Shown: positions 4,052-26,166, numbered from the stretch's first letter. The stretch is 62,859 nt of DNA from Methanolobus psychrotolerans (GCF_002243045.1 NZ_MBKP01000016.1:1-62859); one strand, 5' to 3'. Notes: generated by a model from the letters alone, not told the origin. Program-made: numbers and translations.

Positions 4052-4834
4052 CTATTTTCCTTTCAGGCTCACAAACTTCAATGTGAACTCCCCATCAGAG
4101 GTCAAAATATACTCCTTTTCCTTCTTACTTCCTTCGATATGCTTTTCATCGATAAGATTCCAGTTGAGAAGGTCTCTTGTTAAGGAATTGAATACGCCAT
4201 CTTTAAGGTTCCTGTCAGCTCTTTTCTTATCTCTTATTGGAATATATTCCTTTGAGAGTTTTTCAAACAATTTTTTTCTTGGCAGTTTTTTCAATTTTTC
4301 ATCACTCGAAGGCTTTTGTTCGTCCAGAATTCTAAGTATAGTTACCCTGTTAGGGTTTGCCTGGAAATCTTCAATGTGAACTTTTGGTATTGAGATTGTT
4401 TTAGCTGTTTTTTCCATATCTACATGGTAAGGTATTGCTTCGAACCACAAAGCCATCATGAACAAGCCTATTGATAGTGCTTTAGTTCCTCCTGATACGT
4501 TAAAGTAGTACTCAGCATCGGGATTCTTCTTATATATCTCAAAAACTGCATCCTTGATATGATCAAGAGTGTCGGCTTCTATAATTTTCTCATGCACTCC
4601 TTTTTTTGCAATCGGTGTGGCTAGTTCTTTTAAATTCTCTATAGACCTTCTGATAGCTTCTCTTGTTTTCTGTTTGTCTGGATCATCTGAATCCTCATAG
4701 ATTCTCTTTTCAGCAATGACATATACCTCGAATGCCGGTGAGATGTTGTAGATTGCTATGGAAAATGTGTTATGCACATTCGCCCCGGCACTCATTATGT
4801 GAATTTTCTCTTTTTTTGTCATTCTATGTTTCAT
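4052..4834 (-). CDS. CARF-type winged-helix regulator 1 (HFX_2341/DUF6293-like)
   Basis: A 260-residue protein. The N-terminal ~150 residues form a Rossmann-type sensor: a first strand IHIMSAG, an alternating helix/strand region, and FNVSGGTKALS at 111-121, which matches the Gly-Gly-Thr-Lys ligand-loop signature of CARF and HFX_2341-type domains. The C-terminal ~90 residues look like a winged helix (NRVTILRILDE, then a lysine-rich helix and YILTSDGEF). CARF domains bind cyclic oligoadenylates in type III CRISPR systems, but no CRISPR genes are present here and the ligand is unknown. It is divergent from the viperin gene across 60 bp that hold an A/T palindrome, so it probably regulates itself and the viperin operon. 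An internal Met5 is an alternative start. Confidence 0.75.
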   Translation of the reverse strand: MKHRMTKKEKIHIMSAGANVHNTFSIAIYNISPAFEVYVIAEKRIYEDSDDPDKQKTREAIRRSIENLKELATPIAKKGVHEKIIEADTLDHIKDAVFEIYKKNPDAEYYFNVSGGTKALSIGLFMMALWFEAIPYHVDMEKTAKTISIPKVHIEDFQANPNRVTILRILDEQKPSSDEKLKKLPRKKLFEKLSKEYIPIRDKKRADRNLKDGVFNSLTRDLLNWNLIDEKHIEGSKKEKEYILTSDGEFTLKFVSLKGK

Positions 4835-4840
4835 TTTAAG

Positions 4841-4882
4841 TTTATTAATTAATAAATCTATTTATTAAATAATTAGTAAATT
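4841..4882. promoter_or_regulatory. candidate operator between CARF regulator 1 and viperin
   Basis: TTTATTAATTAATAAA (4841-4856) is a perfect 16-bp palindrome, followed at 4860-4882 by a looser copy (TTTATTAAATAATTAGTAAA). It starts 7 bp from the regulator's ATG and lies 39-54 bp from the viperin ATG, so a bound dimer would cover both promoters. A/T palindromes occur by chance in such DNA, but the placement favours an operator. Confidence 0.5.
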
Positions 4883-4894
4883 TAAAAAATTATT

Positions 4895-5752
4895 ATGTAC
4901 ACTGGAACGAATTCTCAGTTGATGACGAATACAACAATAAAATCTGTAAACTGGCACGTGACCATGAATTGCAACTACAAATGCAGGTTTTGTTTCTACA
5001 AAAACATGAGTGGGGAATTCAAAGATATTGAAAAAGCCAGACATAAACTTGAAACTTTAAAGGAAAAAGGAATTGAGAAAATCAATTTTGCTGGCGGAGA
5101 GCCTTTGTTATACAAAAATCTGAACTACCTTCTAACGATGGCAAAGGATATGGGATTCATCGTTAGCATTGTCACAAACGCAGCTCTGCTCAATGAGAAT
5201 AATCTCAGGCAAATGAGTGAGTGTGTGGACTGGGTAGGTATATCAGTAGATTCTGCGGATGAATTAATCGAAAAAGAACTGGGGAGGGGAAACGGGAATC
5301 ATGTGGAACATGTCCGTAAGGTTTCCGAACTTGTCCACGACTATGGCATGAAGTTAAAGATCAACACTACAGTCACCAGGATGAACTACTCTGAAGATAT
5401 GAAGCCGTTCATATCATCCTTGTGTCCGGAAAGGTGGAAGGTCTTCCAGATACTTCATATGAAAGGCCAGAATGATGATGCTCTTGATCTTATTCTTAAC
5501 CAGGAAGAATTTGATATCTTCAGGAATATAAACGATGGACTTGTATTCAAAAATGGCACCTCACCTGTCTTTGAATCTGTTGAAGATATGCTGGAATCAT
5601 ATTTCATCATAGGTCCGGATGGTGATATTCTTCTAAGTAAAGGCAATCAGCGCTCAACAATTACTTTTGAATCGCTTCATCATATGGAGCTTGCAGATCT
5701 GGTTGATGCAGACAAGTACAATGGAAGGAGAGCTGTCTATGACTGGAACTAA
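4895..5752 (+). CDS. pVip: prokaryotic viperin (radical SAM nucleotide dehydratase)
   Basis: This 285-residue protein is a viperin homologue. It has the radical-SAM cluster motif CNYKCRFC (Cys26, Cys30, Cys33), the SAM-binding strand KINFAGGEP, and viperin-specific blocks: GRGNGNHVEHV, LKINTTVTRMN...EDM and ERWKVFQ, close to the human KINSVINRFN...EDM and RWKVFQ. It ends YDWN, like the conserved C-terminal tryptophan of viperin. Viperins use a 4Fe-4S cluster and SAM to turn CTP (and in some prokaryotes GTP or UTP) into 3'-deoxy-3',4'-didehydro nucleotides that terminate viral RNA chains. The N-terminal amphipathic helix of animal viperin is absent. The gene overlaps the downstream kinase by 14 bp and faces a CARF-type regulator, so co-regulation is likely. 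Met10 is an alternative start. Substrate preference cannot be read from sequence. Confidence 0.92.
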   Translation: MYTGTNSQLMTNTTIKSVNWHVTMNCNYKCRFCFYKNMSGEFKDIEKARHKLETLKEKGIEKINFAGGEPLLYKNLNYLLTMAKDMGFIVSIVTNAALLNENNLRQMSECVDWVGISVDSADELIEKELGRGNGNHVEHVRKVSELVHDYGMKLKINTTVTRMNYSEDMKPFISSLCPERWKVFQILHMKGQNDDALDLILNQEEFDIFRNINDGLVFKNGTSPVFESVEDMLESYFIIGPDGDILLSKGNQRSTITFESLHHMELADLVDADKYNGRRAVYDWN

Positions 5753-6347
5753 ACCGGTCTTTTCTTTTTCAGATTCTTCTCTGGATAATCTGAATTCATT
5801 GAGAAGGATCTGCTTTACAGGTGTAAGGGGAGTTGGAAAGTCACGTGTGCTTAAAGAGATTAACAAAGAAAAGCTGAATTTTATTTTCACTTCAGGCTCT
5901 GATATTCTTCAGGATATGATGGGGGAAGCTTACTCTCAATTTGAATTCTTACCTGAATACAAAAAATATGCTTACAGGTTGAAAATCAGGGATTCACTTC
6001 ATAAAATGCAGGAAGTAAATGGAAAGGATTTGCTGGTTGATTCCCACCTTACGGTCTACAATTTGAAGTCTGGAGAAATTGATGTAATCTTTACCCATGA
6101 GGATTACGGATTTTATACGGACATTATCCTGCTTGATTCATATCCTGAACGTATTCTTGACCATCGACAAAGAGATACTAACAAGAAAAGGATCATTGAT
6201 CTGGATGTTATCAGGAAAGAGCTTGATTTCGAAAGGAGGAAGGCTTCAGAAATATCAGAGGAGTATGGGATACTACTTCATGTGATTCAGATGGGTGAGG
6301 ACGCTGCTGAAAAAATGCTCGATATTTTACACAGGTGCAAAGTATGA
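5739..6347 (+). CDS. archaeal adenylate-kinase-like nucleotide kinase
   Basis: A 202-residue P-loop protein with Walker A FTGVRGVGKS (26-35). The later layout matches archaeal adenylate kinases (AdkA type): a strand with LLVDSHLTVYN (AdkA: vdtHatI), ILLDSYPERILDHRQRD (AdkA: lieaePeeIl-RR-RD), and a final helix KASEISEEYGILLHVIQ. I expect it to phosphorylate a nucleoside mono- or diphosphate. Its overlap with both flanking viperin genes (14 bp and 4 bp) argues that it supplies viperin substrate or processes viperin product. In vertebrates viperin sits beside CMPK2, a UMP/CMP kinase, which is an independent parallel. The start at 5739 was chosen because the kinase sequence begins there; longer in-frame starts lie deep within viperin. 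Confidence 0.75.
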   Translation: MTGTKPVFSFSDSSLDNLNSLRRICFTGVRGVGKSRVLKEINKEKLNFIFTSGSDILQDMMGEAYSQFEFLPEYKKYAYRLKIRDSLHKMQEVNGKDLLVDSHLTVYNLKSGEIDVIFTHEDYGFYTDIILLDSYPERILDHRQRDTNKKRIIDLDVIRKELDFERRKASEISEEYGILLHVIQMGEDAAEKMLDILHRCKV

Positions 6348-7084
6348 AAAATCTCACAAAAGGTTTTCAATCAAGTACTTTCCTTGATTCAATCAATTGG
6401 CATATTACATTGAAATGTAATTACAATTGCAAATTTTGTTCTGTCAAAAAACAAAAATCAACGATTACTGAAATACTAGACGCCGAAACTATATTGTTCA
6501 GATTATATGATATGGGATTTGAGAAAATAAACCTTGTTGGTGGAGAACCTTTACTTTATCCTTTTATATATGACATTACAAAAATTGCAAAAAAGATGGG
6601 ATTTGTAATAACTCTCAGAACTAATGGATCACTTTTAACAAGCTCGAAAATTGCAATATTATCCCCTTATCTTGATTGGATAGAACTTCCTCTTGATTCA
6701 AGTAAAGAAGAAATTGAAAAAGAACTGGGAAGAGGATGTGGAAAACACATACAGAACATTCAGAGGGTTTCGAATATTCTCAAATGTACGGATGTAAAAT
6801 TGAAGATTAACACCATTATTACAAAACTAAACTGCAAAGAGGATTTGAAACCATTTATAAGAGCCTTAAATCCTGACAAATGGGAAATATTTAAGGCACC
6901 TAACATAAAGGATGAAATTTATTCAAAATTCTTAATAAGTGATCAAGAATTTCTAAATTACCAAAAATTGAATGAAGATATTATATTGAAATCAGGAGAT
7001 AAACCTGTTTTTAATCAACATAAAAACACTATTGATTTATGTTCTGTGTTACTAGCTTCAAAAGACATTAATAGTGTCTCATAA
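6344..7084 (+). CDS. second viperin-like radical SAM protein, shortened C-terminus
   Basis: A paralogue of the first viperin, 246 residues from the ATG that overlaps the kinase stop (ATGA). It keeps CNYNCKFC (Cys25, 29, 32), KINLVGGEP, ELGRGCGKHIQNIQRV, LKINTIITKLN...EDL and a weaker DKWEIFK block. It then ends at SKDINSVS, about 40 residues before the position of the C-terminal Trp in the first copy. The missing segment contributes to substrate closure in viperin, so this copy may be inactive, have other specificity or act as a partner subunit. It is more A+T-rich than the first copy, which argues against a very recent duplication. No restored viperin C-terminus is visible in the next 100 bp. 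Confidence 0.75.
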   Translation: MKNLTKGFQSSTFLDSINWHITLKCNYNCKFCSVKKQKSTITEILDAETILFRLYDMGFEKINLVGGEPLLYPFIYDITKIAKKMGFVITLRTNGSLLTSSKIAILSPYLDWIELPLDSSKEEIEKELGRGCGKHIQNIQRVSNILKCTDVKLKINTIITKLNCKEDLKPFIRALNPDKWEIFKAPNIKDEIYSKFLISDQEFLNYQKLNEDIILKSGDKPVFNQHKNTIDLCSVLLASKDINSVS

Positions 7085-7198
7085 AATATATATTCGATGT
7101 TGGCATTAAATAGTGGTGAAAGTATTGCAGCAATTGAAAAAAAGTATTCATTATTGAATTCATCTGTGTAGTAATTTTTCTTTGAAGTGAGTGAAAGA

Positions 7199-10100
7199 AT
7201 GAGTAAAATAGACTATAACATAATTAAAGAATTTTTCTTTGACACATATCTAATTGATAGTCATCTCAAAGTAAGGGAGAAATTCAAACAGTGCACCACA
7301 AAGATGGAAAAAGAAGAGCTTTACCATCATTTTCAATTGAATAATCTTTTTTTGATCAGAAGATGTCATGATCCTGGTTTTTACCTATATGTTCTCGATA
7401 AAGTAAATAAAAATGAAAAAATCAAAGCAACTGTAAAAAAATATACTAACAAATTAGTCACTTCAAGCTTAAATTTTGAACAAGAATTATTTGGATCATT
7501 CTCTAATGAAGTTGAAGATAAATTGATTGACAAAGAGATTAAAAATCCAATAACTTGGCCATTTTCATCGTCATTAGACAAAGCCAAGAACTTTGATGAA
7601 GTAAATGACAATTCCTTATATTATTTTTCTAAAAGACTTCAGCATGCGATTGATAATGGGGAAGAAAACGAATTCTTTGTACTCTCACAACTTATTAGCG
7701 ATTATAAATCTGGATATTTCAAGGGTTATCAGATATTTAGTGAGGATAATTTATATGGGGAACAAGTAGGTTCACATCGCTGGTTATACTCTCAGAGCCA
7801 ATACATGCTTGAAAATATAAAATTTTGTTCACATTACTACTATTCCCATTCTTTTAATATTCACAATTTAGTGAAATTAAATCCTCATGATGTTAAATTT
7901 GTGAAAAAGCTTGTGAAAATAATAAAAGAAATGACTGATGATAAAGAACTCTCAATGCTAGATACTTTAATGAACTATAATAAATTCATAAATGATGCTT
8001 TTTCAGTTGCTTCTCTCATTTGGTTCAATTCGCATAACGAAATGGATAAAATAAATATTTTGAATAGTGAATACCCTTTCGAAATATCTGATAATATACT
8101 TGAAGAATATAAGTCCGCTCTATGCGAATATCGATTTTGTAATAATGAGAAAAATGATTATTTTGAGTTATCTATATTTGCAAATGAACTTTTTCAGTCA
8201 TGTTTTTTTGAAGAAGCAAGGATAATTTGGACCTCTATCCTGAAAAGCACTGAGAATACAAATACTAAGTTCAGTTGCTATGATAATTTAGCAACAACTC
8301 TTCGGGAACTTGGAAAATTTGATGAAGCTATAGATTATTACAAAAAATCACTTGTTTTAGCGGAAGAACTTAGCAAATCAAAGGAACTGAACGAAAAAAA
8401 TAATGTTGACTGGAATCAATTGACCACCGATGAAACTGAAAAACAATTATTAAGACACATCGGTAAATATGTTGACAAAAACTGCAATTATACACATAAA
8501 ATGGCAGTTGAGTTAAAGAATATTGGGGAAATGTATTATCAATTAGGTGAAACTGAAATTGCCGAAAAATATTTCCTTGAAACTGAAGACAAATGTTCAG
8601 AATTATCTCCCTCTGAAAAAAGTAATATTTATTTCAATTTAGCCTGCGCAAATAGAAGATTGGGCAGATTCAATGAAGAATTCACGTATTTATCAAAAAT
8701 ATTAAATGAAAACGGCATAAATCCACTGGCAGAAGAACGTGCTCTAGAGAGAATGAGTATACTTAATTCTATGGAATTTATGCTGCAAGATGGTAGTTTT
8801 GATTATAATAAATTGAACAAAATTGAAAACATAATAAAAGTTGATGAACTATCAAAAAATGGAACATCACTTTTCCATACATTTCAATTCGCAAAATCAA
8901 TGGACTATTTTGAAAAGGAGTATAAGATTGAAAAACTCCATGGCTTTTCTTGTTTCAATTCTTTAAATTATAATGCGACGTATAATCTATATTGCGGTAA
9001 TTTTCTAAAAGCAAAGGACTTGTGCAAAGAACTAATCGATAACTCTCAGGAGCCCGTTTATGCTGCCATTGCTAAAATCGATATTGGTTTAATTGACATT
9101 AAAGAAAATAATTTTGATGAGGGGATTAAGCATCTCGAAGATTCTTGTGACATATTTACTCAATTAAACAATGGATTATTGGAATTTATAATTACGATTA
9201 TTAACACATCAACTTTGTTGTGGTCAAAGGGAAATGTAGATAAAATCATTGATTCACTTGAAACGAAAATAATCTCAAAGGATATTAATTTTCATCTAAT
9301 AGCTGGCTGTGCCTACCTGGAAGTAGGATTCTTCGAAAATGCATTTGACTATTTTGAACGTGGACTGAATACAAAAGCAGACAATGAAACAAAATCACTT
9401 CTCTTATACAATAAAGGACTTGCATATTCTGGCATTGGTAAAACAGATAAAGCGATAGAGAACTATCAAAAATCTCTTGATTGTTTGAAAAGTGTTTATG
9501 CCTGGGAATCAATGGCAAAAGAATATAGAAGAGACTTAGAGACCATAAAAGCAAAAGAATGCATTGAAGAAGCAATAAATTTATCTTCAGAAGATGACAA
9601 AAAGAGACTCGAAAATATTAAGGAAGAACTTGATGCACTCTCAAGCAAAAGGCTGAACCTAAGCTCTTTAAAAGATGATAATATCAGAAAAACATTGTAT
9701 TCTGCTGAAAAACTGATGATCAGCGACATCAAGAAAATGGAAGATATCAATGAACGTGATTTCTCTACATCTTTGCATTATTATGGCAAAGCCCTGGAGA
9801 ATATGCTTGACAGTCAGATCTCAAACCAAATACGTCAAATTATTTATGATGAATTTGGATATTGTGTTTGTGAAGATTACAGCAAATTTAAAAGAAAAGA
9901 ATTCCCTCAATACCTAAAGTACATGCTGGATAAAAACAAAAAAGGGTCTATTGGACTAAATGGTTGGAGAACAATACTGCAATATGTAAATGAAAAAAGT
10001 AAGAATCCTGTATACCAAAAGTTCAAAGACGAATTAATAAAACGTTATTCTCCAGAAGATATGCAAAAAATCAAATTTGCATGTGGTATGATTAGTTCTT

Positions 10101-10210
10101 ATAGGAATGACTCGGTACATAAAAATGTAAAAAGTTATGATGAGGTGCTAAATGTAAGGCAAAAGATTGTATTGCACTTGAATAATGCAATCTATATCTT
10201 GTATAAGTAG
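7199..10210 (+). CDS. large TPR protein with candidate C-terminal HEPN RNase motif
   Basis: A 1003-residue, largely helical protein. Residues ~360-830 carry repeated TPR-like helical pairs (for example YDNLATTLRELGKFDEAIDYY, YFNLACANRRLGRFNEE, LLYNKGLAYSGIGKTDKAIENY). The N-terminal third is unrecognised. The last ~150 residues form a separate helical unit (YYGKALENML ... SSYRNDSVHKNVKSYDEV) whose RNDSVH at 969-974 fits the R-x4-H catalytic motif of HEPN ribonucleases, in the usual R-N-x3-H form. TPR repeats usually bind protein partners or sense, so a sensor-effector RNase is a reasonable inference. It follows the shortened viperin by 114 bp on the same strand. ATG 7199 is preferred over GTG 7187 because an AGTGAGTGA stretch sits just upstream. 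No family name is certain. Confidence 0.6.
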   Translation: MSKIDYNIIKEFFFDTYLIDSHLKVREKFKQCTTKMEKEELYHHFQLNNLFLIRRCHDPGFYLYVLDKVNKNEKIKATVKKYTNKLVTSSLNFEQELFGSFSNEVEDKLIDKEIKNPITWPFSSSLDKAKNFDEVNDNSLYYFSKRLQHAIDNGEENEFFVLSQLISDYKSGYFKGYQIFSEDNLYGEQVGSHRWLYSQSQYMLENIKFCSHYYYSHSFNIHNLVKLNPHDVKFVKKLVKIIKEMTDDKELSMLDTLMNYNKFINDAFSVASLIWFNSHNEMDKINILNSEYPFEISDNILEEYKSALCEYRFCNNEKNDYFELSIFANELFQSCFFEEARIIWTSILKSTENTNTKFSCYDNLATTLRELGKFDEAIDYYKKSLVLAEELSKSKELNEKNNVDWNQLTTDETEKQLLRHIGKYVDKNCNYTHKMAVELKNIGEMYYQLGETEIAEKYFLETEDKCSELSPSEKSNIYFNLACANRRLGRFNEEFTYLSKILNENGINPLAEERALERMSILNSMEFMLQDGSFDYNKLNKIENIIKVDELSKNGTSLFHTFQFAKSMDYFEKEYKIEKLHGFSCFNSLNYNATYNLYCGNFLKAKDLCKELIDNSQEPVYAAIAKIDIGLIDIKENNFDEGIKHLEDSCDIFTQLNNGLLEFIITIINTSTLLWSKGNVDKIIDSLETKIISKDINFHLIAGCAYLEVGFFENAFDYFERGLNTKADNETKSLLLYNKGLAYSGIGKTDKAIENYQKSLDCLKSVYAWESMAKEYRRDLETIKAKECIEEAINLSSEDDKKRLENIKEELDALSSKRLNLSSLKDDNIRKTLYSAEKLMISDIKKMEDINERDFSTSLHYYGKALENMLDSQISNQIRQIIYDEFGYCVCEDYSKFKRKEFPQYLKYMLDKNKKGSIGLNGWRTILQYVNEKSKNPVYQKFKDELIKRYSPEDMQKIKFACGMISSYRNDSVHKNVKSYDEVLNVRQKIVLHLNNAIYILYK

Positions 10211-11006: not shown

Positions 11007-11689
11007 TTATTCAAACATAGCTAACTCTTTATTCCTATGTTTCATTAAGAGCAAAACAGAATATTTCAGCATTTCAAGGCTTTTTGTATAACACTTTGAC
11101 TTTCTCCTTAGTCTTGTCAGAAAGTGTCTGAGTATGCTGTTGTATCCTTCGACAGTATACGTTTCTGCTTTTGATCGTGTGTGAATTTTTCTAGGAAGAA
11201 ATGCCGCGTATGCTTTCCAGTAATCAGTCATTATTTGGCCAACTGCTTTTGTTTCTAACTTTCTCCATAGTTGTATTCCTGTTTCTGTGCCCCTGCTGCC
11301 AAAAGAGCAGTCGATGAATTTTTTCCCAACTCTATCAACAGCAATCCAGATCCAGCAATATTTTTTTTGTTACTGATATAAGTGTGCATCTCATCTAATT
11401 CAACGATCTCTATCTCATTTTCACTTTTTAGGGCTTCTAACTCCTCGCCAAATTTCTTAATCCATTTATATACTGAAACATGGCTTACTCCTAGAACTCG
11501 TCCGATAGAACGAAAACCTAATCCTTCAAGATAAAGTTGTAACGCCTGCCTTTTAACAGAAATGGAACTAGCAGTTGATTTTACCTCGACGGTATAATTA
11601 TAGCCACAATCGTGACATTTGTAGCGTTGACGTCCACCGACTTTTCCATTCTTTTTGTGATCGGAACTCTTGCATCTAGGACAGTTCAT
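11007..11689 (-). CDS. IS1-family transposase in two frames
   Basis: The first frame (11689 to 11255) begins with a zinc ribbon (CPRCKSSDH...CHDCGYN), then a helix-turn-helix (SIGRVLGVSHVSVYKWIKKFG) and the first catalytic aspartate in VELDEMHTY. Just after this, at a run of eight A on the coding strand (11361-11368), the normal transposase sequence switches to the -1 frame (YCWIWIAVDRVGKKFIDCSFGS..., then MTDYWKAY... and YTVEGYNSILRHFL) and runs to 11007. IS1-type elements use programmed -1 frameshifting at A-rich slippery sites, but usually earlier in the gene, so this may instead be a one-base loss. Both halves are otherwise undamaged. The second frame read alone from 11231 would lack the catalytic core. 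Confidence 0.8.
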
Positions 11690-11776: not shown

Positions 11777-12574
11777 TTATTCCATAAAACCACTCACATA
11801 CGCAATATACTGCCCTGCTTCAGTGATCTTAGTTACTGTTATTCTGCCAACCTTTTCCCGCTGAATGTATCCCATTATCTCCAGTTTGTCTAAATATCGC
11901 TTATTAAGTAGCATAATTAAATTCCTTTTTTTACTTCTCCGCTCATATCTATCCATATCTTCGGGCAGCTCCTCAAAACCCTGGACCTCTTTGTCTTTCA
12001 GAATCCTGAATATCTCTTCATTATCCATTCCATCAGGTTTCAGGGAAAGCCTTGATAATAACATTTTACTAACATTGTCAGGCATCATTATCTGGAAATT
12101 GTGAATAGGGGTAATTTTCAAATTTTCACATCTGCTGATACCGTGCTCCTGAATCTCTTCTTCTGACGAGGAATAATTATCTGCATGAACATAATAGACA
12201 TTTACCTGATGAACCATGGCAGCAAGTGTAACTCCCACCGAAGTCAATCTCCCACAGGCTGACATGTTGATGTTGATTATGTTGTTCATCTCTTTTTCTT
12301 TCATTATGATTGAGGATACCCTTTTCATTACTTCTTTGATATCAAACATATCAACATTAATTGATATTACTTCGATACCTTTTGATTGCAATAGTGTCTC
12401 TACTTTTTTCACATAATCTCGCTGCTTTTTCAGCATCATCTTTTTCAGTGCAGCATTTTTCGTAACTGCAAGGATATAGACCCTGTCAGCCTTGTATTTT
12501 TCAAATGGTTTTAAAGCTCTGTCAACTTCATGACCTAAAGGAATGATATGAACTATTTCTTGTAAGCCTTTCAT
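11777..12574 (-). CDS. CARF-type winged-helix regulator 2
   Basis: A 265-residue protein from ATG 12574. The sensor half starts with EIVHIIPLGHEVDRAL and RVYILAV strands and has a ligand-loop-like INMSACGRLTSVG at about 102-114, in the place where other CARF-type proteins have N-x-S/T-G-G. The C-terminal ~90 residues are a winged helix (LSLKPDGMDNEEIFRILKD..., then LEIMGYIQREKVGRITVTKITEAG). Upstream Met codons would place the start inside or beyond a palindrome at 12591-12621, so the 12574 start is preferred. It is divergent from the HhH/zinc-ribbon/XPD-like/helicase genes and probably controls them. The ligand is unknown; the GG-to-AC change in the loop may alter or abolish nucleotide binding. 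Confidence 0.7.
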   Translation of the reverse strand: MKGLQEIVHIIPLGHEVDRALKPFEKYKADRVYILAVTKNAALKKMMLKKQRDYVKKVETLLQSKGIEVISINVDMFDIKEVMKRVSSIIMKEKEMNNIININMSACGRLTSVGVTLAAMVHQVNVYYVHADNYSSSEEEIQEHGISRCENLKITPIHNFQIMMPDNVSKMLLSRLSLKPDGMDNEEIFRILKDKEVQGFEELPEDMDRYERRSKKRNLIMLLNKRYLDKLEIMGYIQREKVGRITVTKITEAGQYIAYVSGFME

Positions 12575-12590
12575 AGAATCACTATTGTTC

Positions 12591-12621
12591 ATTATGTTCA
12601 TAATGTTATATTGAACATAAT
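12591..12621. promoter_or_regulatory. operator candidate of CARF regulator 2
   Basis: ATTATGTTCA (12591-12600) and TTGAACATAAT (12611-12621) form a 10-bp inverted repeat with a 10-base spacer. An extra TGTTCA half site lies just before it (about 12586). It sits 17 bp upstream of the chosen regulator start and 138 bp before the divergent HhH gene. Confidence 0.6.
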
Positions 12622-12758
12622 TATTAACTTTCCTGTTCATCAGAAATCTAGAGGTAAAAACCTTGAGAGAACAATACACAGGAATTTCGGAGAACTATAT
12701 AGACACAGTAGAGAACATTGAAGAAGCTTGTAGAAAAGTAAGCATGTGGTGATTGATC

Positions 12759-13490
12759 ATGACTTTTGAACCTAAATTTTTAGATAAAGAACGAGTGAAA
12801 AGAGTTGATTCGTTCTTAGATCTTGTTGATATTGCAGAGTGGTACAAAAATTATAGTTGGAACAGAGACACATGGAAAAGTGGTTTTCCTGAAATTTTAA
12901 AACTAGAGATTGCAATTGGTGGAGCTGCAAAGAACAATGCTATCGATAAATCTCATTTGATCCAGATAGCAGAATGGGGAAGACTTAGGGACCCACATAG
13001 AGTAGAGCTGACAGGCAATCTGGATATACCTTTTTATGATGAAGATACAATATTTGAGTGGGTTGAAAGGTACCCTGGGATGCACCTTGATCGCTTAAGC
13101 AAGGTTATTACTGGCTTTGGTCCCACATATTCAACAAAACTTCTTCGTTTTGCAGTCCCATCTGAATTTGGTGCACTTGATACCAGACTTGTAAGAGTAT
13201 TTGGCCGAGGGGATAGCAAGAATAAAAAAATAGATTTTCTGAAACTTGCCGTCCAGAGTTCTAATGGTGGGTCAATAAAAACAAGTAGAGATACATGGCC
13301 AAGTGAATACGCCATCTGGATCAATATTTTGAGATACATTGCACATAAGCTGAATGATTCAAGTATCCTCTGTCCTCATCCTGAGGGGTTTGTTGAAGCA
13401 GGATTGAGAGAAGATGGAATCTGGCAATGTGCAGATGTTGAGATGGCTCTCTTTTCTTATGCCACACACTGCATTTACAGCGGGAAATGA
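12759..13490 (+). CDS. HhH-GPD DNA-glycosylase-like protein
   Basis: A 243-residue protein, start chosen at ATG 12759 behind a GGTGAT ribosome site. I do not recognise a named family. The middle (LDRLSKVITGFGPTYSTKLLRF, then PSEFGALDTRLVRVFG) resembles the helix-hairpin-helix plus Gly/Pro plus catalytic Asp layout of HhH-GPD base-excision glycosylases, with GFGP as the hairpin and the Asp of ALDTR as the acid. A C-terminal stretch has Cys and His residues (CPHPEG, QCADVE) but no clear iron-sulfur motif. If correct, it would remove or bind modified bases. It is first of four close-packed plus-strand genes facing CARF regulator 2. The link is fold-level pattern matching, not a firm assignment. 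Confidence 0.4.
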   Translation: MTFEPKFLDKERVKRVDSFLDLVDIAEWYKNYSWNRDTWKSGFPEILKLEIAIGGAAKNNAIDKSHLIQIAEWGRLRDPHRVELTGNLDIPFYDEDTIFEWVERYPGMHLDRLSKVITGFGPTYSTKLLRFAVPSEFGALDTRLVRVFGRGDSKNKKIDFLKLAVQSSNGGSIKTSRDTWPSEYAIWINILRYIAHKLNDSSILCPHPEGFVEAGLREDGIWQCADVEMALFSYATHCIYSGK

Positions 13491-13496
13491 TGTACT

Positions 13497-13718
13497 ATGT
13501 CCCGAATAAAAGTATGTCCCATGTGTGGAGCAAGGAAGGCATTGCCAATGGTCTATGGACTTCCAAGATTTGAAAGTTTTGCTAATAAAGAAGAGCAGGA
13601 TTGTATCTGGATGGGGTGTTGCATGCCTTCTAATCACAAAACAATGTACAGGTGCACGAATTGTGGTCAGGTGTTGACAAAAGATGAGGTTAAGGACGAG
13701 GCTGGTAACAATGAATAA
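13497..13718 (+). CDS. small zinc-ribbon protein
   Basis: A 73-residue protein with CPMCGA (Cys8, Cys11) and CTNCG near the C-terminus, giving a four-cysteine zinc ribbon with a long loop that contains further Cys residues (QDCIWMGCC). It starts 6 bp after the HhH gene and overlaps the XPD-like helicase start by 8 bp, so it is translated with it. It may bind nucleic acid or bridge the glycosylase-like and helicase proteins. Family unknown. Confidence 0.65.
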   Translation: MSRIKVCPMCGARKALPMVYGLPRFESFANKEEQDCIWMGCCMPSNHKTMYRCTNCGQVLTKDEVKDEAGNNE

Positions 13719-15786
13719 CAATACATGTTCCGAAATATATGATTGGTTCCCTTACGCTGAATATCGTCAACATCAGCGTGAAATGCTTGAAGTTGCACAA
13801 CAAATAGGATTAGAAGGAAGTATTGGTCTGATCGATGCTCCCACAGGGTCTGGGAAATCAAGTATAGTAGCTTCACTTCTGAGCGTTCTCGAAAAGAAGA
13901 AGGCATCAGGTGAAGATAAAAAAATTCTGGTGGCAGTAAGGACGAAATCTCAATTGAATACCTTTATCAATGAACTTGACAGGATCAGAAAGGAAAAAAG
14001 AAGTGATCTTACATTTTGTTCTCTGATTGGTAAGCAGGATTTATGTCTTATTCCATGTAAAGAGGATAAATATGAAGTATGCAAGGTACTTCAACACAAT
14101 TCCAGAGAACTAATACAAAAGGGAATTGTTCCTGAAGGTCATAAAGAAGAGCATTTGACCAACTATGATTTTACAGATGCACCTATATTTGAACAAACAA
14201 AGGTCTGCCCTTTTTATCTTAATAGCAGAGAGACTAATGATAAAGGACAGATGGTCTTCACAAAAGAACTTGAATCACTAGCTAATTTCATTCTTAAAAA
14301 TACATTATATTTAGACGACACTGTTAATCTCTGTAAACGTGAAAACGTTTGTCCCTACGAAGCTGTTCTGGCAGCAACGAAGAATGCAGATGTGATCATT
14401 GTTAATTTCCTGCACATCTTTAACGATAAACTCAATCCTGGCGAAATACCGACCAATTCACTTATTCTGATAGATGAAGCACATAATATTGGAAATACAG
14501 TTCAATCCATTCAGACAACTGACATTGTGAAAAAAGATTTTGATTTCATCAGGGAAGATATTGATGCTCTTCTAAAAGATCGTCCACAATTAAAGAATCA
14601 TGCTGATAACATATTCAGTCTTGTTGAAGCAATCGAGCTTTTTTCCCATATGCATGTCATAGCTGAGGACAAAAATGATGTATTTCTCTATGAGAATCTA
14701 AAAGAGATTATTTTCAGGAAATGTGGTCCGGAAAAAAGAGAATTCTGTGAGGATAATTACTTGAAGGTTTATTCCAAGTTAAAGGATGATCTCAACATAA
14801 TCTCCCATGAGATAGAAGCACGGAAGATCAATTCAATGGACCTTACAGGTAATTCTATCCAGAGGCTTCAGGCTTTCATGGAAAATCTGGAAAAGTTGAA
14901 ATCGATTTCATCATTTTTGCCTGTTTATTCAATTGATGATAAATCTGAAGTGAATCTGGAGATAAGGAATATCGATCCAAGTGAAAGGATAAAGCAGGTT
15001 GCAAATGAATATGATTGCTGCCTGATGGTCAGTGGTACGTTATCCCCTCTGGAGGTCTTCAGTCAATATTATTTTGGGAATGAGAAAGTGGTTACACATT
15101 TCGTACCAAATGCATTTCCAGAAGAAAATAGAAGACTCATATGCATAAAAGATGTGACTTCAGCCTATAAGAAACGAAATTGTCTGGACAATCTCGAAAG
15201 AACTCTCAGGTGCATGGAAACATTCTGCAGCATAGATGGAAATCTGGCCATATTTTTCCCTTCATACGAGGTTCTGAATATCTACAGGACTGAAATTGAA
15301 GCCCGGATCAGTAATAAAGAGTTGTTCATTGAACCACGTGATTCAAAAGAAGCGGAAGAGGTAATCAAAAAGTTCAAGTCCTTGCCTGGTGATGGAAAAT
15401 CAGGATTGATACTCGGTGTTTGTGGCGGTAAGTTGTGTGAAGGTATTGATTACCCAGGAGACATGCTTGTCGGAGCATTTGTCTATGGTCTGCCACTTGC
15501 ACAATGGAACAATATCCAGAAACGGATCAATGCATATTATGAGAGTAAATATGGTTCTGATGGAACATTTATAGCATATAATCTTCCAGCCATCAATAAA
15601 ACTATCCAATCCCTTGGAAGAGTTATCAGAAATAAGGATGATAAAGGTTTCTTGGTAATAGCTGATGAACGCTATTCATTCCCATTATACAGGAACAATC
15701 TTTCACCATGGATGAAAGAGGAAATCATCTATTGTGATTCTGTGGATTTCGAGGGATATGTCGGGGACTGGACAAAAGACGAATAA
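13711..15786 (+). CDS. XPD/DinG-like superfamily 2 helicase
   Basis: A 691-residue helicase. Walker A is IDAPTGSGKSS (41-51), the DEAH box is LILIDEAHNIG, later motifs are MVSGTLSPLE and SLGRVIRNKDD. Between motifs I and II are clustered cysteines (CSLIGKQDLCLIPC...CKVL, then CPFY and CKRENVCPYE), as expected for the iron-sulfur domain of XPD, DinG and Rad3 helicases, which unwind 5'-to-3'. Starting at 13711 removes nine upstream codons that lie within the zinc-ribbon gene. DinG/XPD-like helicases recur in defence islands and mobile elements. Beside a glycosylase-like protein and a helicase-nuclease, a DNA-damage-style attack on foreign DNA is possible (inference). Confidence 0.8.
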   Translation: MNNNTCSEIYDWFPYAEYRQHQREMLEVAQQIGLEGSIGLIDAPTGSGKSSIVASLLSVLEKKKASGEDKKILVAVRTKSQLNTFINELDRIRKEKRSDLTFCSLIGKQDLCLIPCKEDKYEVCKVLQHNSRELIQKGIVPEGHKEEHLTNYDFTDAPIFEQTKVCPFYLNSRETNDKGQMVFTKELESLANFILKNTLYLDDTVNLCKRENVCPYEAVLAATKNADVIIVNFLHIFNDKLNPGEIPTNSLILIDEAHNIGNTVQSIQTTDIVKKDFDFIREDIDALLKDRPQLKNHADNIFSLVEAIELFSHMHVIAEDKNDVFLYENLKEIIFRKCGPEKREFCEDNYLKVYSKLKDDLNIISHEIEARKINSMDLTGNSIQRLQAFMENLEKLKSISSFLPVYSIDDKSEVNLEIRNIDPSERIKQVANEYDCCLMVSGTLSPLEVFSQYYFGNEKVVTHFVPNAFPEENRRLICIKDVTSAYKKRNCLDNLERTLRCMETFCSIDGNLAIFFPSYEVLNIYRTEIEARISNKELFIEPRDSKEAEEVIKKFKSLPGDGKSGLILGVCGGKLCEGIDYPGDMLVGAFVYGLPLAQWNNIQKRINAYYESKYGSDGTFIAYNLPAINKTIQSLGRVIRNKDDKGFLVIADERYSFPLYRNNLSPWMKEEIIYCDSVDFEGYVGDWTKDE

Positions 15787-15954
15787 TGATGCATAGATTC
15801 TCACTTTGACAGTTTATTCTATGAAACTAATATGGAGACTGTTTGCAGATTTGACATGAATTTAATATAAAAGATTTGCCTTAATTACGTTACTTAATAT
15901 GTGTATACTATACTACATCCAATTCACCTCTACCTTCTAAATTTGGTAACTATA

Positions 15955-18513
15955 ATGTCATGCGAAAAAATGGAACAACTCAAATCCGTAGTAACAGAAA
16001 TCAAACAGCAGAACCGCCTGATATTTGCAGGTTACATATTAATCCCTTTAATTGTTGGCATATTCCTGATCAAAACTGCCAATCGAAAAAAGAATGAGCT
16101 ATTGAAACTGAAAGAAACTATCATTCATGACGTTAAGAAGGAGAATGAAAATAGATTAAAGGAATTAGTTGATATCGTTGATTCCATAAATGATACTTAT
16201 TTTTCTTACCACAAAAGATATTCAACAATCGTAAAATGCGATCTGTGCATTGACGATTTTCAATTCCTCAATAAACATAAAAATCTGTTTTTAAATGATT
16301 TCAATGAATACGTTAATGAATTAATCAATTCTATGATAACACTGAGAAATAAATTTAAAGCTTATGATAATACTGCTTTTGTCGAGGAAATGATTACAGA
16401 ATATGACTATCTTTTCAAGAAATCTCCTTTCCCGCTTGATCAATCCCAAAAGATTGCAGTCGTAACGGATGATACTCATAACTTAGTTGTTGCTGGAGCA
16501 GGTTCAGGTAAGACAGAGGTTCTGATTACAAGGGTTGCGTACCTAATCGAACGTAAACCAGATACAATAGATCCTAAAAGAATTCTTGTTCTTGCTTTTC
16601 AAAGCAAAGCTGCCAAAGAAGTATATGAAAGACTCTATTCAAGATTTGGTTTTGATGTCAAAATAAAAACGTTCCACTCGTTGGGTCGTGAGATTCTAAT
16701 GAAAGTGCATCGAGATTCGGGAATGGACACACCTCTAATAGTTGATGAAAATGAACAACGACAACTTATTCTTTCAATTTACAATGAAAAACTGATGGAT
16801 AGTAAGTTTCAAAATGAGATTGTTAACTACATGAAAGCATACGGTGACAGTGAAGTACGCAAGTCTAAATCTGATTTTGATGAAAAAAAGGCATACTACG
16901 AATATATGCGTAATTTGACATATAAGGCATTAGATGGTACCATAGTGAAAAGTGAAGCCGAAAGAGAAATTCTCAACTTTTTTATAACTCATGATCTGAA
17001 CGGAAGAAGAATGAAAGTTCTCTACGAAAATCTTGCTGAATGGATGGCTTATAATAATGAAAATGGTGAGACTCATATTCCAAAACCTGATTTTTTCTTC
17101 CCGGATTATGATATTTATCTTGAACACTGGGGTATAGACGAACATGGCAAAGTTCCTGAGTGGTTTGAAGGGACCAATCCTTCAAAAGCCTACAAAGAAG
17201 GCATGGAGCAAAAAAAGAAGAAGTTTGCAGAACAAGATAAGTATTTACTTGTGGAAACGACACATAAAGATTATAGGCAAAATGATTTTATCGAAATTTT
17301 TAAAAAACGGCTGCTTAAAGCATTAAATGAAAAAAATCCAGGGACTCATTTTGAGTTCACCAGTATTCCATATGAAAAACTTGTAAAAAGAGTATGGGAA
17401 GAATGTGTAGTTTCTGTACGGAATCTTCCTCATCATATTGGCAATTTCATAACTATAGCTAAAACATATAATTTAACTCCAGAAGAAATAGAACTAAGAA
17501 TCAAGAATGAACCTTGGTCTTTGAAACAAATAGAATTTACGAATATAGCCCTTAATGTTTACTCTGGTTATGAAGAAAGACTGCAGTTTGAGAACAAAAT
17601 CGATTTCTCAGATATGATTAATCTGGCAGTCAAAAATCTCAAGCACAACGAAGATTTATACAAAAACAGGTTTGACCATATTCTTGTTGATGAATATCAG
17701 GATATCAGTCAGCAAAGATATGAACTCATTGAATCTCTTATGGACAAAAATAATGGCTGCAAGTTATTTTGTGTTGGAGATGACTGGCAGAGTATAATGG
17801 GTTTCTCTGGTTCGAACCTGGATTTTTTCGTTCATTTTGATCAATATTTTGATCATCCTTCTGTAACGTATCTTACTGTGAACTATAGAAGTTGTAAATC
17901 AATTGTGGATACAGGAGCAGAAATAATTAAACATAATGGTGGTGCTCAGCTAAAAAAAGATGCATTTGCCCAAAAAGATGCCGTGAAACCTTTAAGAGCT
18001 TTTATTTCTGTCCACGAATCAAAATCAATGAATGATTATTATTCACAGGTTGCTCAGCATTGTGTAATTGCCATTAATAGTTACTTACAAAAAGGGTATG
18101 AACCACAGGAAATAATGATCCTCTCAAGGATAGCCAATAATCCTAAAATGAAAGGGAAATTACAAGAATATTCAACACTCTTTAATGTACCCATTTCTTT
18201 TGAAACAAAATCAATAAACAAAATTCGTTTTATGTCGGTTCATTCAAGTAAAGGCTTGCAAGCAAGGGTAGTATTTTTACTTAATGTTGTAGAAGGACTA
18301 TATGGTTTCCCATGTGAGAAAGAAAATCCTGATATTTTTGAACCTGCTGCAAAAGGAAGAAAAAAGGATAAAGAGGAAGAGGAAAGAAGACTTTTCTATG
18401 TGGCAGTAACCAGGGCAATGGAAGATCTGGTCATTTACAGCCAAATGGGTTCGGAAAGTAAGTTTCTTGAAGAAATTAAGGATCATGTTGTTGTAGATAA
18501 TTTACGAAATTGA
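15955..18513 (+). CDS. UvrD-like helicase with membrane anchor and inserted nuclease-like segment
   Basis: 852 residues from ATG 15955. An N-terminal hydrophobic helix (IFAGYILIPLIVGIFLI, about 19-38) suggests a membrane anchor, which is unusual for a helicase. Superfamily 1 motifs follow: AGAGSGKTEVL near 180, a FHSLGREI motif, LVDEYQDISQQ, GDDWQSIMGF, VNYRSCKS and VHSSKGLQARVVFL. Between motifs Ia and II, residues ~325-440 carry KSEAEREILNFF, PKPDFFFPDYDIYLEHWGI and YLLVETTHKDY, the pattern of a PD-(D/E)XK-like domain also seen inside helicase IV-type proteins. It starts 168 bp after the XPD-like gene, so it may have its own promoter, and it is followed by a BREX locus. Met 15970 is an alternative start. 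Confidence 0.75.
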   Translation: MSCEKMEQLKSVVTEIKQQNRLIFAGYILIPLIVGIFLIKTANRKKNELLKLKETIIHDVKKENENRLKELVDIVDSINDTYFSYHKRYSTIVKCDLCIDDFQFLNKHKNLFLNDFNEYVNELINSMITLRNKFKAYDNTAFVEEMITEYDYLFKKSPFPLDQSQKIAVVTDDTHNLVVAGAGSGKTEVLITRVAYLIERKPDTIDPKRILVLAFQSKAAKEVYERLYSRFGFDVKIKTFHSLGREILMKVHRDSGMDTPLIVDENEQRQLILSIYNEKLMDSKFQNEIVNYMKAYGDSEVRKSKSDFDEKKAYYEYMRNLTYKALDGTIVKSEAEREILNFFITHDLNGRRMKVLYENLAEWMAYNNENGETHIPKPDFFFPDYDIYLEHWGIDEHGKVPEWFEGTNPSKAYKEGMEQKKKKFAEQDKYLLVETTHKDYRQNDFIEIFKKRLLKALNEKNPGTHFEFTSIPYEKLVKRVWEECVVSVRNLPHHIGNFITIAKTYNLTPEEIELRIKNEPWSLKQIEFTNIALNVYSGYEERLQFENKIDFSDMINLAVKNLKHNEDLYKNRFDHILVDEYQDISQQRYELIESLMDKNNGCKLFCVGDDWQSIMGFSGSNLDFFVHFDQYFDHPSVTYLTVNYRSCKSIVDTGAEIIKHNGGAQLKKDAFAQKDAVKPLRAFISVHESKSMNDYYSQVAQHCVIAINSYLQKGYEPQEIMILSRIANNPKMKGKLQEYSTLFNVPISFETKSINKIRFMSVHSSKGLQARVVFLLNVVEGLYGFPCEKENPDIFEPAAKGRKKDKEEEERRLFYVAVTRAMEDLVIYSQMGSESKFLEEIKDHVVVDNLRN

Positions 18514-22825: not shown

Positions 22826-24682
22826 ATGGATAAGGCAAGCATCATCAAATTCTCGGACACTGTGCGGGATAAGCTTCACCAGGAAGTAAAGGACAGAGCT
22901 GCATTCTATGGTATACGTCCGAAAGAGATCCTTCCTGTGGATTCCGAGCATTCGGATTCCATGGTTATCGGTGGTAAGGTATTCAACAGGAAGATAAAGG
23001 AACAGAGAGAGCATCTGGTGAAGGAGGTTAAACTCAAGGGTTATGAGAAGGTGATGGATGAGGTCACTTATACCTGGTTCAACCGCTTTGTTGCTTTGAA
23101 GTTCATGGAGGTTAATGATTACATCCCGGTAAAGGTGTTCACTTCCGATGATGCGGACAGGACCGAGCCGGGGATCATTACCCATGCCCTTACGCTGGAT
23201 TTTCTGGAACTTGACTCTGACCTTGTGCTTGACATGAAGGCTGAGAATGAGGAGGAAGAACTGTACAAGTACCTGATACTGCGGCTGTGCAATTACCTTA
23301 ACCGTACCATGCCTTTCATGTTCGAGAACATAGCTGATTACACGGAGCTTTTGTTCCCTGAGAAGCTGTTACATATTGATTCCATTGTGAAGGACATGAA
23401 CGGGATCATTTCTGAGGACGATTGGAGAGAAGTGGAAGTTATCGGCTGGATCTACCAGGATTATATTGCTCCCAAAAAAGATGAGGTTTTCAAAAAACTG
23501 AAGACGAACGTCAAGATAAGCAAGGAGAATATCCCGGCAGCGACCCAGTTGTTCACGCCTCACTGGATAGTTCGCTACCTGGTGGAGAACTCACTGGGCC
23601 GTTTGTGGATGCTGAACCGACCCGGTTCCAGGCTGCATGAGCGGATGGACTATTACATCAGGCCGGAACAAAGTGAAACGGATTTCCTGAAGGTCAATTC
23701 CCCTGAGGATATCAAGGTGTGCGACCCGGCATGTGGTTCAGGACATATGCTGGTCTATGCTTTTGACCTGCTGTATGCTATCTATGAAGAGGAGGGCTAT
23801 GACCACTCCGAGATACCTGAAATGATATTGACCCACAATCTTTTTGGCATTGAGATAGACGAGCGTGCCGGAGAGCTGGCGGCTTTTGCGCTAACCATGA
23901 AGGCCAGGAGAAAGAACCGCAATTTCTTCCGCAAACCAGTCCATCCCAATATATGCGTTTTGGAGAACGTTTCCTTTGAGGAGGGCGAGCTCAATGCCTA
24001 CATCACAGCCGTTGGCCGGGAGCTGTTCACCACTGAGGTAAGGGCCACGCTGCTTCAGTTCAATGAGGCTGACAATTTCGGTTCCCTCATCCGTCCGAAA
24101 GCCGCGGATGTTTCGGCTATTCTGAAAATACCGAAGTCAAAGGTTCTTTCTGAAAATCTCACTCTTCTTTCCACTCACCAGAAGGTACTCCAGGCCCTGA
24201 AGCAGGCAGATTATCTTAGCCCTAAATATCATGTAGTGGTTGCCAACCCGCCGTACATGGGTGGCAAGGGGATGAATGACAGACTTAAGAGCTTTGCACA
24301 GGACAATTATCTCAATAGTAAATCTGATTTCTTTGCGATGTTCATTGACCGCAACCTTGACCTTGCAATGCAGAAAGGCATGGTGGCTATGATCACCATG
24401 CAGAGCTGGATGTTCCTTTCTTCCTATGAGAAACTCCGGACAAGCATTCTGGACGACCGTACCATATTGTCCATGGCACATCTTGGGCCGAGGGCTTTTG
24501 ACAGTATTGGTGGGGAGGTTGTTTCTACTACTGCTTTTGTTATTGAGAATGCACAGCATCCGGATTATAAGGGAGCTTATATACGGCTTGTGGATGGTAA
24601 TAGTGAGGCTGAGAAAGACGCTTGGCTGCGTGAGGCAGTGATGCAGGCCAGAGATATTGATACAGATCAAATGGAGGCCTAA
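22826..24682 (+). CDS. pglX: BREX adenine methyltransferase PglX, N-terminal polypeptide
   Basis: 618 residues carrying the methyltransferase half of PglX: the SAM-binding loop CDPACGSGHMLV at about 299-310 and the catalytic NPPY (474-477) of N6-adenine methyltransferases. The frame ends at residue 618, about halfway through a normal ~1200-residue PglX, after RLVDGNSEAEKDAWLREA. The matching remainder resumes at 26632 after an inserted gene. PglX marks host DNA at a non-palindromic site so that BREX spares it. Whether this half works with the C-terminal half as two subunits, as HsdM does with HsdS, cannot be told from sequence. Both halves are free of internal damage, which favours function. 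Confidence 0.88.
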   Translation: MDKASIIKFSDTVRDKLHQEVKDRAAFYGIRPKEILPVDSEHSDSMVIGGKVFNRKIKEQREHLVKEVKLKGYEKVMDEVTYTWFNRFVALKFMEVNDYIPVKVFTSDDADRTEPGIITHALTLDFLELDSDLVLDMKAENEEEELYKYLILRLCNYLNRTMPFMFENIADYTELLFPEKLLHIDSIVKDMNGIISEDDWREVEVIGWIYQDYIAPKKDEVFKKLKTNVKISKENIPAATQLFTPHWIVRYLVENSLGRLWMLNRPGSRLHERMDYYIRPEQSETDFLKVNSPEDIKVCDPACGSGHMLVYAFDLLYAIYEEEGYDHSEIPEMILTHNLFGIEIDERAGELAAFALTMKARRKNRNFFRKPVHPNICVLENVSFEEGELNAYITAVGRELFTTEVRATLLQFNEADNFGSLIRPKAADVSAILKIPKSKVLSENLTLLSTHQKVLQALKQADYLSPKYHVVVANPPYMGGKGMNDRLKSFAQDNYLNSKSDFFAMFIDRNLDLAMQKGMVAMITMQSWMFLSSYEKLRTSILDDRTILSMAHLGPRAFDSIGGEVVSTTAFVIENAQHPDYKGAYIRLVDGNSEAEKDAWLREAVMQARDIDTDQMEA

Positions 24683-24711
24683 TTATTCTCCCTATCTCCC
24701 AGCTCATCACC

Positions 24712-26166
24712 ATGCCTGAGGGCAAGACGCTGGAGTTCAAGCGTGATATTTCCTCGCCAAAGAACATTATCAAGACGCTTGTAGCATTTGCCAACACTGC
24801 TGGAGGGCGTTTGCTCATAGGGGTGGAGGATGACACCAGAGAGGTGCGGGGGGTAGAGAATCCCCTTGATGAGGAGGAGCGCCTGTGCGATATTATTGCT
24901 GATAATATAGCTCCACGCTTAGTGCCTAATGTGGAGTTGATGTCCGTTGAGGATAAGACCCTGCTGAGCGTGGAGGTGTATCCGAGCGGGCAGCGTCCTC
25001 ATTGGGTGAGAAAGGAAGGGCCTGATGAGGGTGTTTATGTACGACTGGGGTCTACTAACAGGAAGGCTGACCGGGAACTTATTGCAGAGTTGAAGCGTAC
25101 CTCAGCAGGTACTTCTTTTGATGAATTGCCTTTGCCTGATCTTAGTGTGGAAGCACTGGATATAGTAGCAGCAAAGGAGTTATTCAAGGGGAAGCGTGAT
25201 CTGGGTGAGCGAGAGATAGTATCTTTGAAAATGCTCACAGAGGCGCAGGGACACCTGGTTCCAACTATTGGTGGAGTGTTGCTTTTTGGGAAGGAGCGTG
25301 AAGAACGCTTTCCCGATGTCTGGATACAGTGCGGTCGTTTTGAGGGCACTACAAAAAGCGTGATTTTTGATCATATCGAGATACATGAACATTTGCCAAT
25401 AGCTGTTGAGCAGGCAATAGATTTTATTAAGAAACATTCCATGCGAGGTGCGGATCTCTCACAGATCAAACGGCGGGATGTGTGGAGTATTCCTCTTGAC
25501 ATTGTGCGTGAGGCTGTTATAAATGCGATAGTGCATGCTGATTATTCGCAGATAGGTGCTCCTTTGAGAGTTGCCATCTATGATGATAGAGTGGAGATAG
25601 AGAATCCTGGTATCCTTGTGCCAGGTATGACCGTTGAGGATGTCAAGCAAGGTGTGTCCAAGATACGCAATCGTGTTATTGCCCGTGTTTTCAGAGAACT
25701 GGGCCTTGTGGAGCAATGGGGCAGTGGTGTTCCCCGTATCTTTGAAGAGGCAGAGGCTTTGCAATTGCCAGAACCTAAGATCGAAGAGATAGGAATGAGA
25801 GTTCGTTTTACTATCTATCTGAAGGGGTCAGCGATCAGGCCTCCATATAAGGGACCAAGTGGGGACCAAGTGGGGACCAAGTGGGGACCAAGTAGGGACC
25901 AAGTAGGGACCATGTTTGAATTAACTACAGAGCATATCAAGGTCTTGCATGCCTGCATTGAAGATTCCGGGATACTGGAACTGATGAGCGTTACCGAGCG
26001 CAGTAACAGGACCAAGTTCAGGAATAATGTCCTGGTCCCATTATTGTCGAATGATCTTATCGAAATGACCATCCCCGAAAAACCCCGCAGCAGCAAGCAG
26101 AAATACCGCCTGACGCCCAAAGGCCGCGCATTCTTAGCCCAGGAAAAGAAGGTGAAGAAAGAATGA
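24712..26166 (+). CDS. AlbA_2 / RecG-like ATP-binding regulator inserted in pglX
   Basis: 484 residues of the COG2865 type. An AlbA_2 DNA-binding/Schlafen-like domain opens the protein (EGKTLEFKRD, then FANTAGGRLLIGVEDD at about 25-40), followed by a GHKL-like ATP-binding segment (REAVINAIVHADY, DRVEIENPGILVPGM, RELGLVEQWGSGVPRIFEE). After residue ~379 comes a linker coded by six 11-bp repeats, then a winged-helix tail (YRLTPKGRAFL). Similar genes occur between the M and S genes of type I restriction systems; here one sits between the two parts of pglX, 29 bp after the first. It may regulate modification or act as a separate effector. The stop overlaps the next ATG (ATGA). Confidence 0.8.
   Translation: MPEGKTLEFKRDISSPKNIIKTLVAFANTAGGRLLIGVEDDTREVRGVENPLDEEERLCDIIADNIAPRLVPNVELMSVEDKTLLSVEVYPSGQRPHWVRKEGPDEGVYVRLGSTNRKADRELIAELKRTSAGTSFDELPLPDLSVEALDIVAAKELFKGKRDLGEREIVSLKMLTEAQGHLVPTIGGVLLFGKEREERFPDVWIQCGRFEGTTKSVIFDHIEIHEHLPIAVEQAIDFIKKHSMRGADLSQIKRRDVWSIPLDIVREAVINAIVHADYSQIGAPLRVAIYDDRVEIENPGILVPGMTVEDVKQGVSKIRNRVIARVFRELGLVEQWGSGVPRIFEEAEALQLPEPKIEEIGMRVRFTIYLKGSAIRPPYKGPSGDQVGTKWGPSRDQVGTMFELTTEHIKVLHACIEDSGILELMSVTERSNRTKFRNNVLVPLLSNDLIEMTIPEKPRSSKQKYRLTPKGRAFLAQEKKVKKE
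25850..25915 (+). repeat. six 11-bp tandem repeats inside the AlbA_2 gene
   Basis: Consecutive units of (A/G)GGGACCAAGT fill 66 bp: one AGGGACCAAGT, three GGGGACCAAGT, one AGGGACCAAGT and a last AGGGACCATGT. Because 11 is not a multiple of 3, each unit is read in a new frame (GPS, GDQV, GTKW...). Loss or gain of one or two units would shift the frame and remove the winged-helix tail; three units would not. Confidence 0.9.

Follow-up and report, generated by a model that had tools for sequence, protein, structure and literature searches.

At the core of this locus is a pair of divergently transcribed genes, encoding a CARF winged-helix regulator and a highly diverged HhH protein, which probably form an undescribed two-gene module whose role we infer to be antiviral. 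Positions are those of the window, the whole 62,859-nt stretch of Methanolobus psychrotolerans DNA that was analysed (GCF_002243045.1 NZ_MBKP01000016.1:1-62859), the region under study being 11777-18513. The original prediction had grouped five genes of this region (for the CARF regulator and HhH, zinc-ribbon, XPD-like and UvrD-like proteins) into one defence module, and the window sequence bears out all five at their predicted positions, with the regulator facing the plus-strand genes (see the table below). The HhH, zinc-ribbon and XPD-like genes are, as predicted, tightly packed or overlapping, and the UvrD-like gene follows after 168 bp if its start is the ATG at 15955. Absent from that prediction was brxB, the first gene of a BREX-1 island, which starts 150 bp 3′ of the UvrD-like gene. 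At the left edge of the CARF-HhH module there is a transposase-like ORF (11255-11689; IS1-like by eye).

Table. Features of the CARF-HhH locus, with positions in the window
Feature	Position	Strand	Role and basis
CARF + winged-helix transcription regulator	11777..12574	minus	core member; Pfam, PADLOC, pocket motifs
Operator, TTCAT direct repeats with overlapping palindrome	12587..12625	unstranded	sequence and conserved position
Possible 29-codon TTG ORF	12663..12752	plus	alignment and translation; weak
HhH protein, 243 aa, divergent HhH-GPD/OGG-like	12759..13490	plus	core member; alignment, Pfam OGG, AF2
Small zinc-ribbon protein	13497..13718	plus	same operon here, judged by position
XPD/DinG-like Fe-S superfamily 2 helicase	13711..15786	plus	occasional partner; Pfam, rad3, Fe-S Cys

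CARF proteins are known chiefly as CRISPR accessories. The regulator of this locus matches HFX_2341_N (126 bits, E 1e-36) and DUF6293_C (61 bits, E 1e-16) in Pfam, both above cut-off, and scores 345 bits with the PADLOC CARF3 model; it has both the CARF domain and the C-terminal winged helix of the CARF-wHTH (Csa3-like) class, in agreement with its predicted CARF type. For its start, the ATG ending at 12574 seems better placed than the GTG at 12679, because the GTG-extended reading crosses the operator and the conserved N-terminus starts MKGLQ. The ligand-pocket motifs IIPLGHExDRA and NMS[AS]CGR are kept among the CARF relatives that are paired with HhH genes. At 58417-59016 the window encodes yet another CARF regulator, its third (CasR/CARF3, 303 bits).

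The pairing of these two genes recurs well beyond the window. Among the 186 genomes of the order, the HhH protein was found in the window genome and in three others at about 50% identity, with one further weak match; a four-member HhH profile matched in 15 of the 393 genomes of the phylum (two of them marginally), and a profile scan of genome contigs gave six further HhH loci, four from named methanogens, where the single-protein scan of genome contigs gave no match. In 12 loci (the window and 11 others), spanning several methanogen families and one bacterial-labelled MAG, a CARF gene of the same subfamily adjoins the HhH gene and is transcribed away from it. The subfamily lies within 1.5 kb of 9/14 genomic HhH copies, against about 0.2% expected per copy, a figure uncorrected for phylogeny; of the eight genomes that hold a paired copy, four belong to one genus. 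Seen from the regulator, 16 genomes together gave 28 CARF-domain matches that pass the cut-off; 11 of these matches score at least 117 bits, and HhH adjoins nine of these 11 CARFs of the subfamily. The CARF and HhH distance matrices are strongly correlated (Mantel r 0.90, 12 pairs), a value inflated by shared ancestry; this is expected from co-inheritance of the two genes, with shared species history contributing too. At the level of sequence comparison, these counts establish the CARF-HhH pairing.

The copies themselves vary in state. One genome (G323) holds three copies, decayed copies occur (L044, L047 and a remnant in G113), and two HhH genes without a CARF partner (G092 and G135) are set among housekeeping genes. 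In G113, what is left of the module (L105, 9065-9421) is a truncated CARF gene whose product is 72% identical to the window CARF; a gene orthologous to window 35734-36996 (91%) lies close by, and the island that carries this remnant is a related one.

The best evidence that the pair acts as one regulatory unit is an operator that is kept where neutral DNA should not align. Between the CARF and HhH start codons lie TTCAC repeats (TTCAT in the window, at 12588 and 12597) with a period of 9 bp, together with a palindrome; the palindrome predicted at the regulator is thus real, and runs over 12591-12621 as ATTATGTTCA (12591-12600), an N11 spacer and TGAACATAAT (12612-12621). Ten CARF-HhH intergenic regions carry the operator at this position, mostly as TTCACaaTa repeats with TCACGTGAA, and the lineages that share it include some with CARFs just ~42-47% identical to the window CARF. 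As judged from these alignments, it is conserved and common to both divergent genes. The possible TTG ORF between operator and HhH gene has a Shine-Dalgarno-like GAGGT and occupies the place that a small gene, X, takes in other lineages; it may be a leader or a remnant.

The gene order and spacing in the window would suit a full system of CARF, HhH, zinc ribbon, XPD and UvrD, but the other genomes do not keep these genes together. No relative of the zinc ribbon turned up in the 186 genomes of the order. UvrD-like orthologues occur in 21 other genomes (47-75% identity), and in the eight contexts inspected (20 kb) the gene stands alone, in several cases amid housekeeping genes and never next to CARF, HhH or XPD. 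The XPD-like protein (Pfam DEAD_2 and Helicase_C_2; rad3, 250 bits) keeps four Fe-S cysteines and the Walker A motif, bearing out the predicted iron-sulfur helicase, and its sole close orthologue (47%) belongs to the module copy of G134, where an unrelated ORF of 89 residues stands instead of the zinc ribbon; of the XPD homologues in other families (35-37%), those inspected occupy other contexts. We therefore reject the five-gene system, contradicted for UvrD and zinc ribbon, as very improbable. What stands of the predicted single gene set is the CARF-HhH pair, recurring widely and often in or near defence islands, with XPD as an occasional partner. The UvrD-like protein, for which a membrane helix was predicted, has an N-terminal hydrophobic segment, and its predicted nuclease insert (helicase-IV-like by eye) is plausible.

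The partners of the module instead vary by lineage, being protein X, a TPR protein or, in the window and G134 only, XPD. Protein X (~125 residues, no Pfam match) is encoded beside HhH in seven loci, mostly between CARF and HhH, and a TPR/DUF7017 protein directly follows HhH in four. Relatives of X (35-36%) occur on two viral contigs (L168 and L169). On contig 2 of G389 (L179, 8409-11272), the place of HhH beside CARF and X is taken by a different gene, of 235 residues, and by a DUF6884 protein, which suggests that effectors are exchangeable under the same CARF. A DUF6884 gene also lies near the HhH gene of G092 (L007, 11578-12213).

We read the HhH protein as a highly divergent relative of the HhH-GPD superfamily, with putative glycosylase activity. 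Across the alignment of 17 relatives the FG..Y hairpin core (GFGPTY in the window protein) and Asp141 are invariant, the latter lost only in decayed-looking copies, so that the hairpin and catalytic-type Asp of HhH-GPD glycosylases are both present; the position of the AP-lyase Lys is taken by Thr123 in the window protein and by Val in two members. A profile-profile alignment with canonical HhH-GPD proteins, of negligible probability and not significant, sets the hairpin and D141 opposite GVGRKTAN...VDTH, so that Asp141 falls at the catalytic Asp and Thr123 at the lyase Lys. A C-terminal motif, CPHP...W.xADVEMALF, is also conserved. Weak Pfam OGG (PF21790) matches came from 13 of the 17 members, the best at E 2.7e-5 and that of the window protein below cut-off, and a PF21790 search of 197 genomes gave sub-threshold matches only; PF00730 did not match the protein, and a PDB sequence search with the family profile gave no match.

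The AlphaFold2 (AF2) model of the window protein (pLDDT 88, pTM 0.90) and a second model, of another family member (pLDDT 80), were compared with known structures by Foldseek. OGG/MutY enzymes made up 9 of the top 10 PDB matches for both models, none significant (E 0.17 or worse, nothing below E 0.001), with TM-scores of ~0.2-0.35. An unrelated fold for the HhH protein, which would have told against the original prediction, is thus not indicated: the evidence on the fold, albeit from non-significant matches and with an OGG score below cut-off, favours a highly diverged member of the HhH-GPD superfamily. The base-excision scheme of that prediction is possible but unproven. Two relatives on Pseudomonas plasmids (E ~5e-3), each adjoining a DNA methyltransferase gene, were set aside as too weak, and no virus-borne relatives were found in scans of viral sequences or in phage records.

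Phage amino acid:DNA transferases are relatives of the glycosylase fold, and one of them was the second-ranked viral fold match of the HhH protein, at a non-significant score. Together with the strong divergence of the protein from catalytic families and its missing lyase Lys, this would suit a use of the fold other than excision, in non-catalytic DNA binding or in base transfer or modification. We think this quite improbable, as Asp141 stands at the place of the catalytic Asp and is invariant in the 17-member alignment. On our main reading, with a catalytic-type Asp and no lyase Lys, the HhH protein would be a monofunctional glycosylase, leaving abasic sites.

The surroundings of the module are rich in defence genes at several loci. 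In the window, a viperin locus (4052-10210) has a Csa3-type CARF gene divergent from two pVip genes, together with genes for a VakA-type kinase and a large TPR protein, in the same divergent CARF layout as the CARF-HhH pair. On the 3′ side is the BREX-1 island, with brxB (18665), ahead of which no brxA was noticed, brxC (19266), pglX in two pieces, pglZ and brxL. Its pglX (22826-28284) is cleanly split: one ORF covers profile positions 2-649 and the other 653-1209 of 1210. Between them lie another two ORFs (24712-26642), of which the first looks AlbA/ATPase-like by eye; within the BREX gene set there is also a Gabija-like GajA/GajB pair (28281-32085). Further on, dGTPase, AbiLi-like, AbiU-like, Wadjet JetC/JetD and PDC-S37 matches share a single island (33999-55448).

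The position of brxB so close behind the UvrD-like gene could mean that the locus is an accessory cassette of BREX-1, but no other copy of the module was seen beside BREX-1; the BREX-3 system of G134 is ~10 kb or more away, and other copies are near Shango, RM or no system. BREX models matched none of the five genes among the matches listed, the BREX genes named above lying outside the locus. As a general explanation we reject the BREX cassette, to which we give hardly any credence.

Systems near the other copies include, besides BREX-3, Shango (G323), AbiU (L017), type I RM with DarT (G493) and type IIG enzymes (G301 and Methanogenium). In G493 (L038, 10418-12084) a DarT relative and then a probable macro-domain gene (DarTG-like by eye) lie directly beside HhH. 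Counted by locus, 7/15 HhH loci have defence systems against ~1/14 arbitrary loci of the same genomes (p 0.02), the arbitrary-locus count being one set of DISARM hits and the neighbouring systems having been identified by hand. Counts of PADLOC-matching proteins show little excess in HhH neighbourhoods over arbitrary loci, so the enrichment is carried by the by-locus count. The defence association of the module is thus supported but not overwhelming, and the patchy distribution, the three copies in G323 and the decayed copies also fit defence genes.

We propose, tentatively and at somewhat less than an even chance, that the regulator controls a DNA-directed antiviral enzyme. A dimeric CARF-winged-helix regulator would bind the TTCAC-repeat operator and control both its own gene and the HhH gene, as suggested by the conserved operator and the known behaviour of CARF-wHTH regulators. 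The regulator may be switched by a small nucleotide bound in its CARF pocket (perhaps a cyclic oligoadenylate or some other nucleotide tied to infection); the HhH-GPD-fold enzyme would then act on DNA bases, most likely those of invading or modified DNA, and lineage-specific partners may process or guard the products (the XPD-like helicase in the window and G134, X or the TPR protein elsewhere). This proposal is supported by the recurrent pairing, the conserved operator, the distance correlation, the invariant Asp and hairpin and the OGG/MutY-led matches; by the defence neighbours, patchy distribution and decayed copies; and by the same divergent CARF layout beside viperin, a known antiviral enzyme. 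It is weakened by the non-significant fold and profile matches and the modest defence enrichment. The more specific form, in which a ligand-sensing CARF repressor or activator switches on an HhH-fold glycosylase that excises modified viral bases, with exchangeable partners, as an archaeal immunity that is as yet undescribed, is possible but doubtful.

The main rival to an antiviral role has the pair repairing host DNA under stress: the CARF would sense a DNA-damage nucleotide and induce an OGG/AlkA-like glycosylase for the cell's own oxidised or alkylated bases, with XPD helping. The closest fold neighbours of HhH are indeed 8-oxoguanine and adenine glycosylases, genes that by eye resemble Mre11/Rad50 border the G134 module, and the CARF-less HhH copies of G092 and G135 sit in housekeeping surroundings; the last two observations also weaken the antiviral reading. 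A repair pair would not, however, readily account for such a patchy distribution, for multiple and decaying copies or for a defence-island location at several loci, and the relatives sampled each already own 2-5 standard HhH-GPD proteins. We consider it rather unlikely. With a conserved operator and a single conserved Asp, both halves of the module are directly testable.

CARF-wHTH regulators such as Csa3 are known from CRISPR loci (PMC4012209, PMC8699464), and the window regulator shares with them the CARF and winged-helix domains, the conserved ligand motifs and the regulator layout; unlike them, it is placed to control HhH, via the conserved operator, and not cas genes. Signalling by CARF proteins away from cas genes could be tested on such a recurrent DNA enzyme, if it is under CARF control, with an operator that can be read. 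In archaeal viperin systems (PADLOC), which comprise a Csa3-type CARF, VakA kinase and TPR, the CARF is likewise divergent from an antiviral enzyme gene, but the output is a radical-SAM viperin where here it is an HhH-GPD-like protein. With the HhH-GPD glycosylases (OGG1/OGG2, MutY, EndoIII) that protein shares the hairpin followed by a catalytic-type Asp and its leading fold matches, and it differs from them in lacking the lyase Lys, in its sub-threshold Pfam OGG score and in its low fold scores; its conserved C-terminal motif may be a further difference.

The known archaeal defence repertoire is thin, and a survey of 7747 archaeal genomes makes no mention of glycosylases (PMC12988326). In line with the original prediction, which could name no matching system, no description of a CARF-HhH or CARF-glycosylase pair was found in the openly licensed literature. 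The antiphage DNA glycosylases Brig1, Brig2 and Brig3 offer a close parallel, Brig1 and Brig3 being described as members of the uracil-DNA glycosylase superfamily (PMC11078745, PMC13160076). Membership of HhH in the Brig group is not supported, no UDG family match having been seen in Pfam or in the fold search. Both lie in defence islands, and in both a glycosylase would attack invading DNA to give abasic sites (as proposed for HhH); the differences are the UDG superfamily of Brig1/Brig3 as against the HhH-GPD/OGG resemblance, CARF regulator and putative activity of the HhH module. If the more specific form of our reading is true, glycosylase-based immunity would have arisen independently of the UDG-fold Brig enzymes, and, should HhH excise bases, this would be a second independent origin of glycosylase antiviral defence, in archaea. 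We file the effector family as new within CARF-regulated effector modules, themselves a known class.
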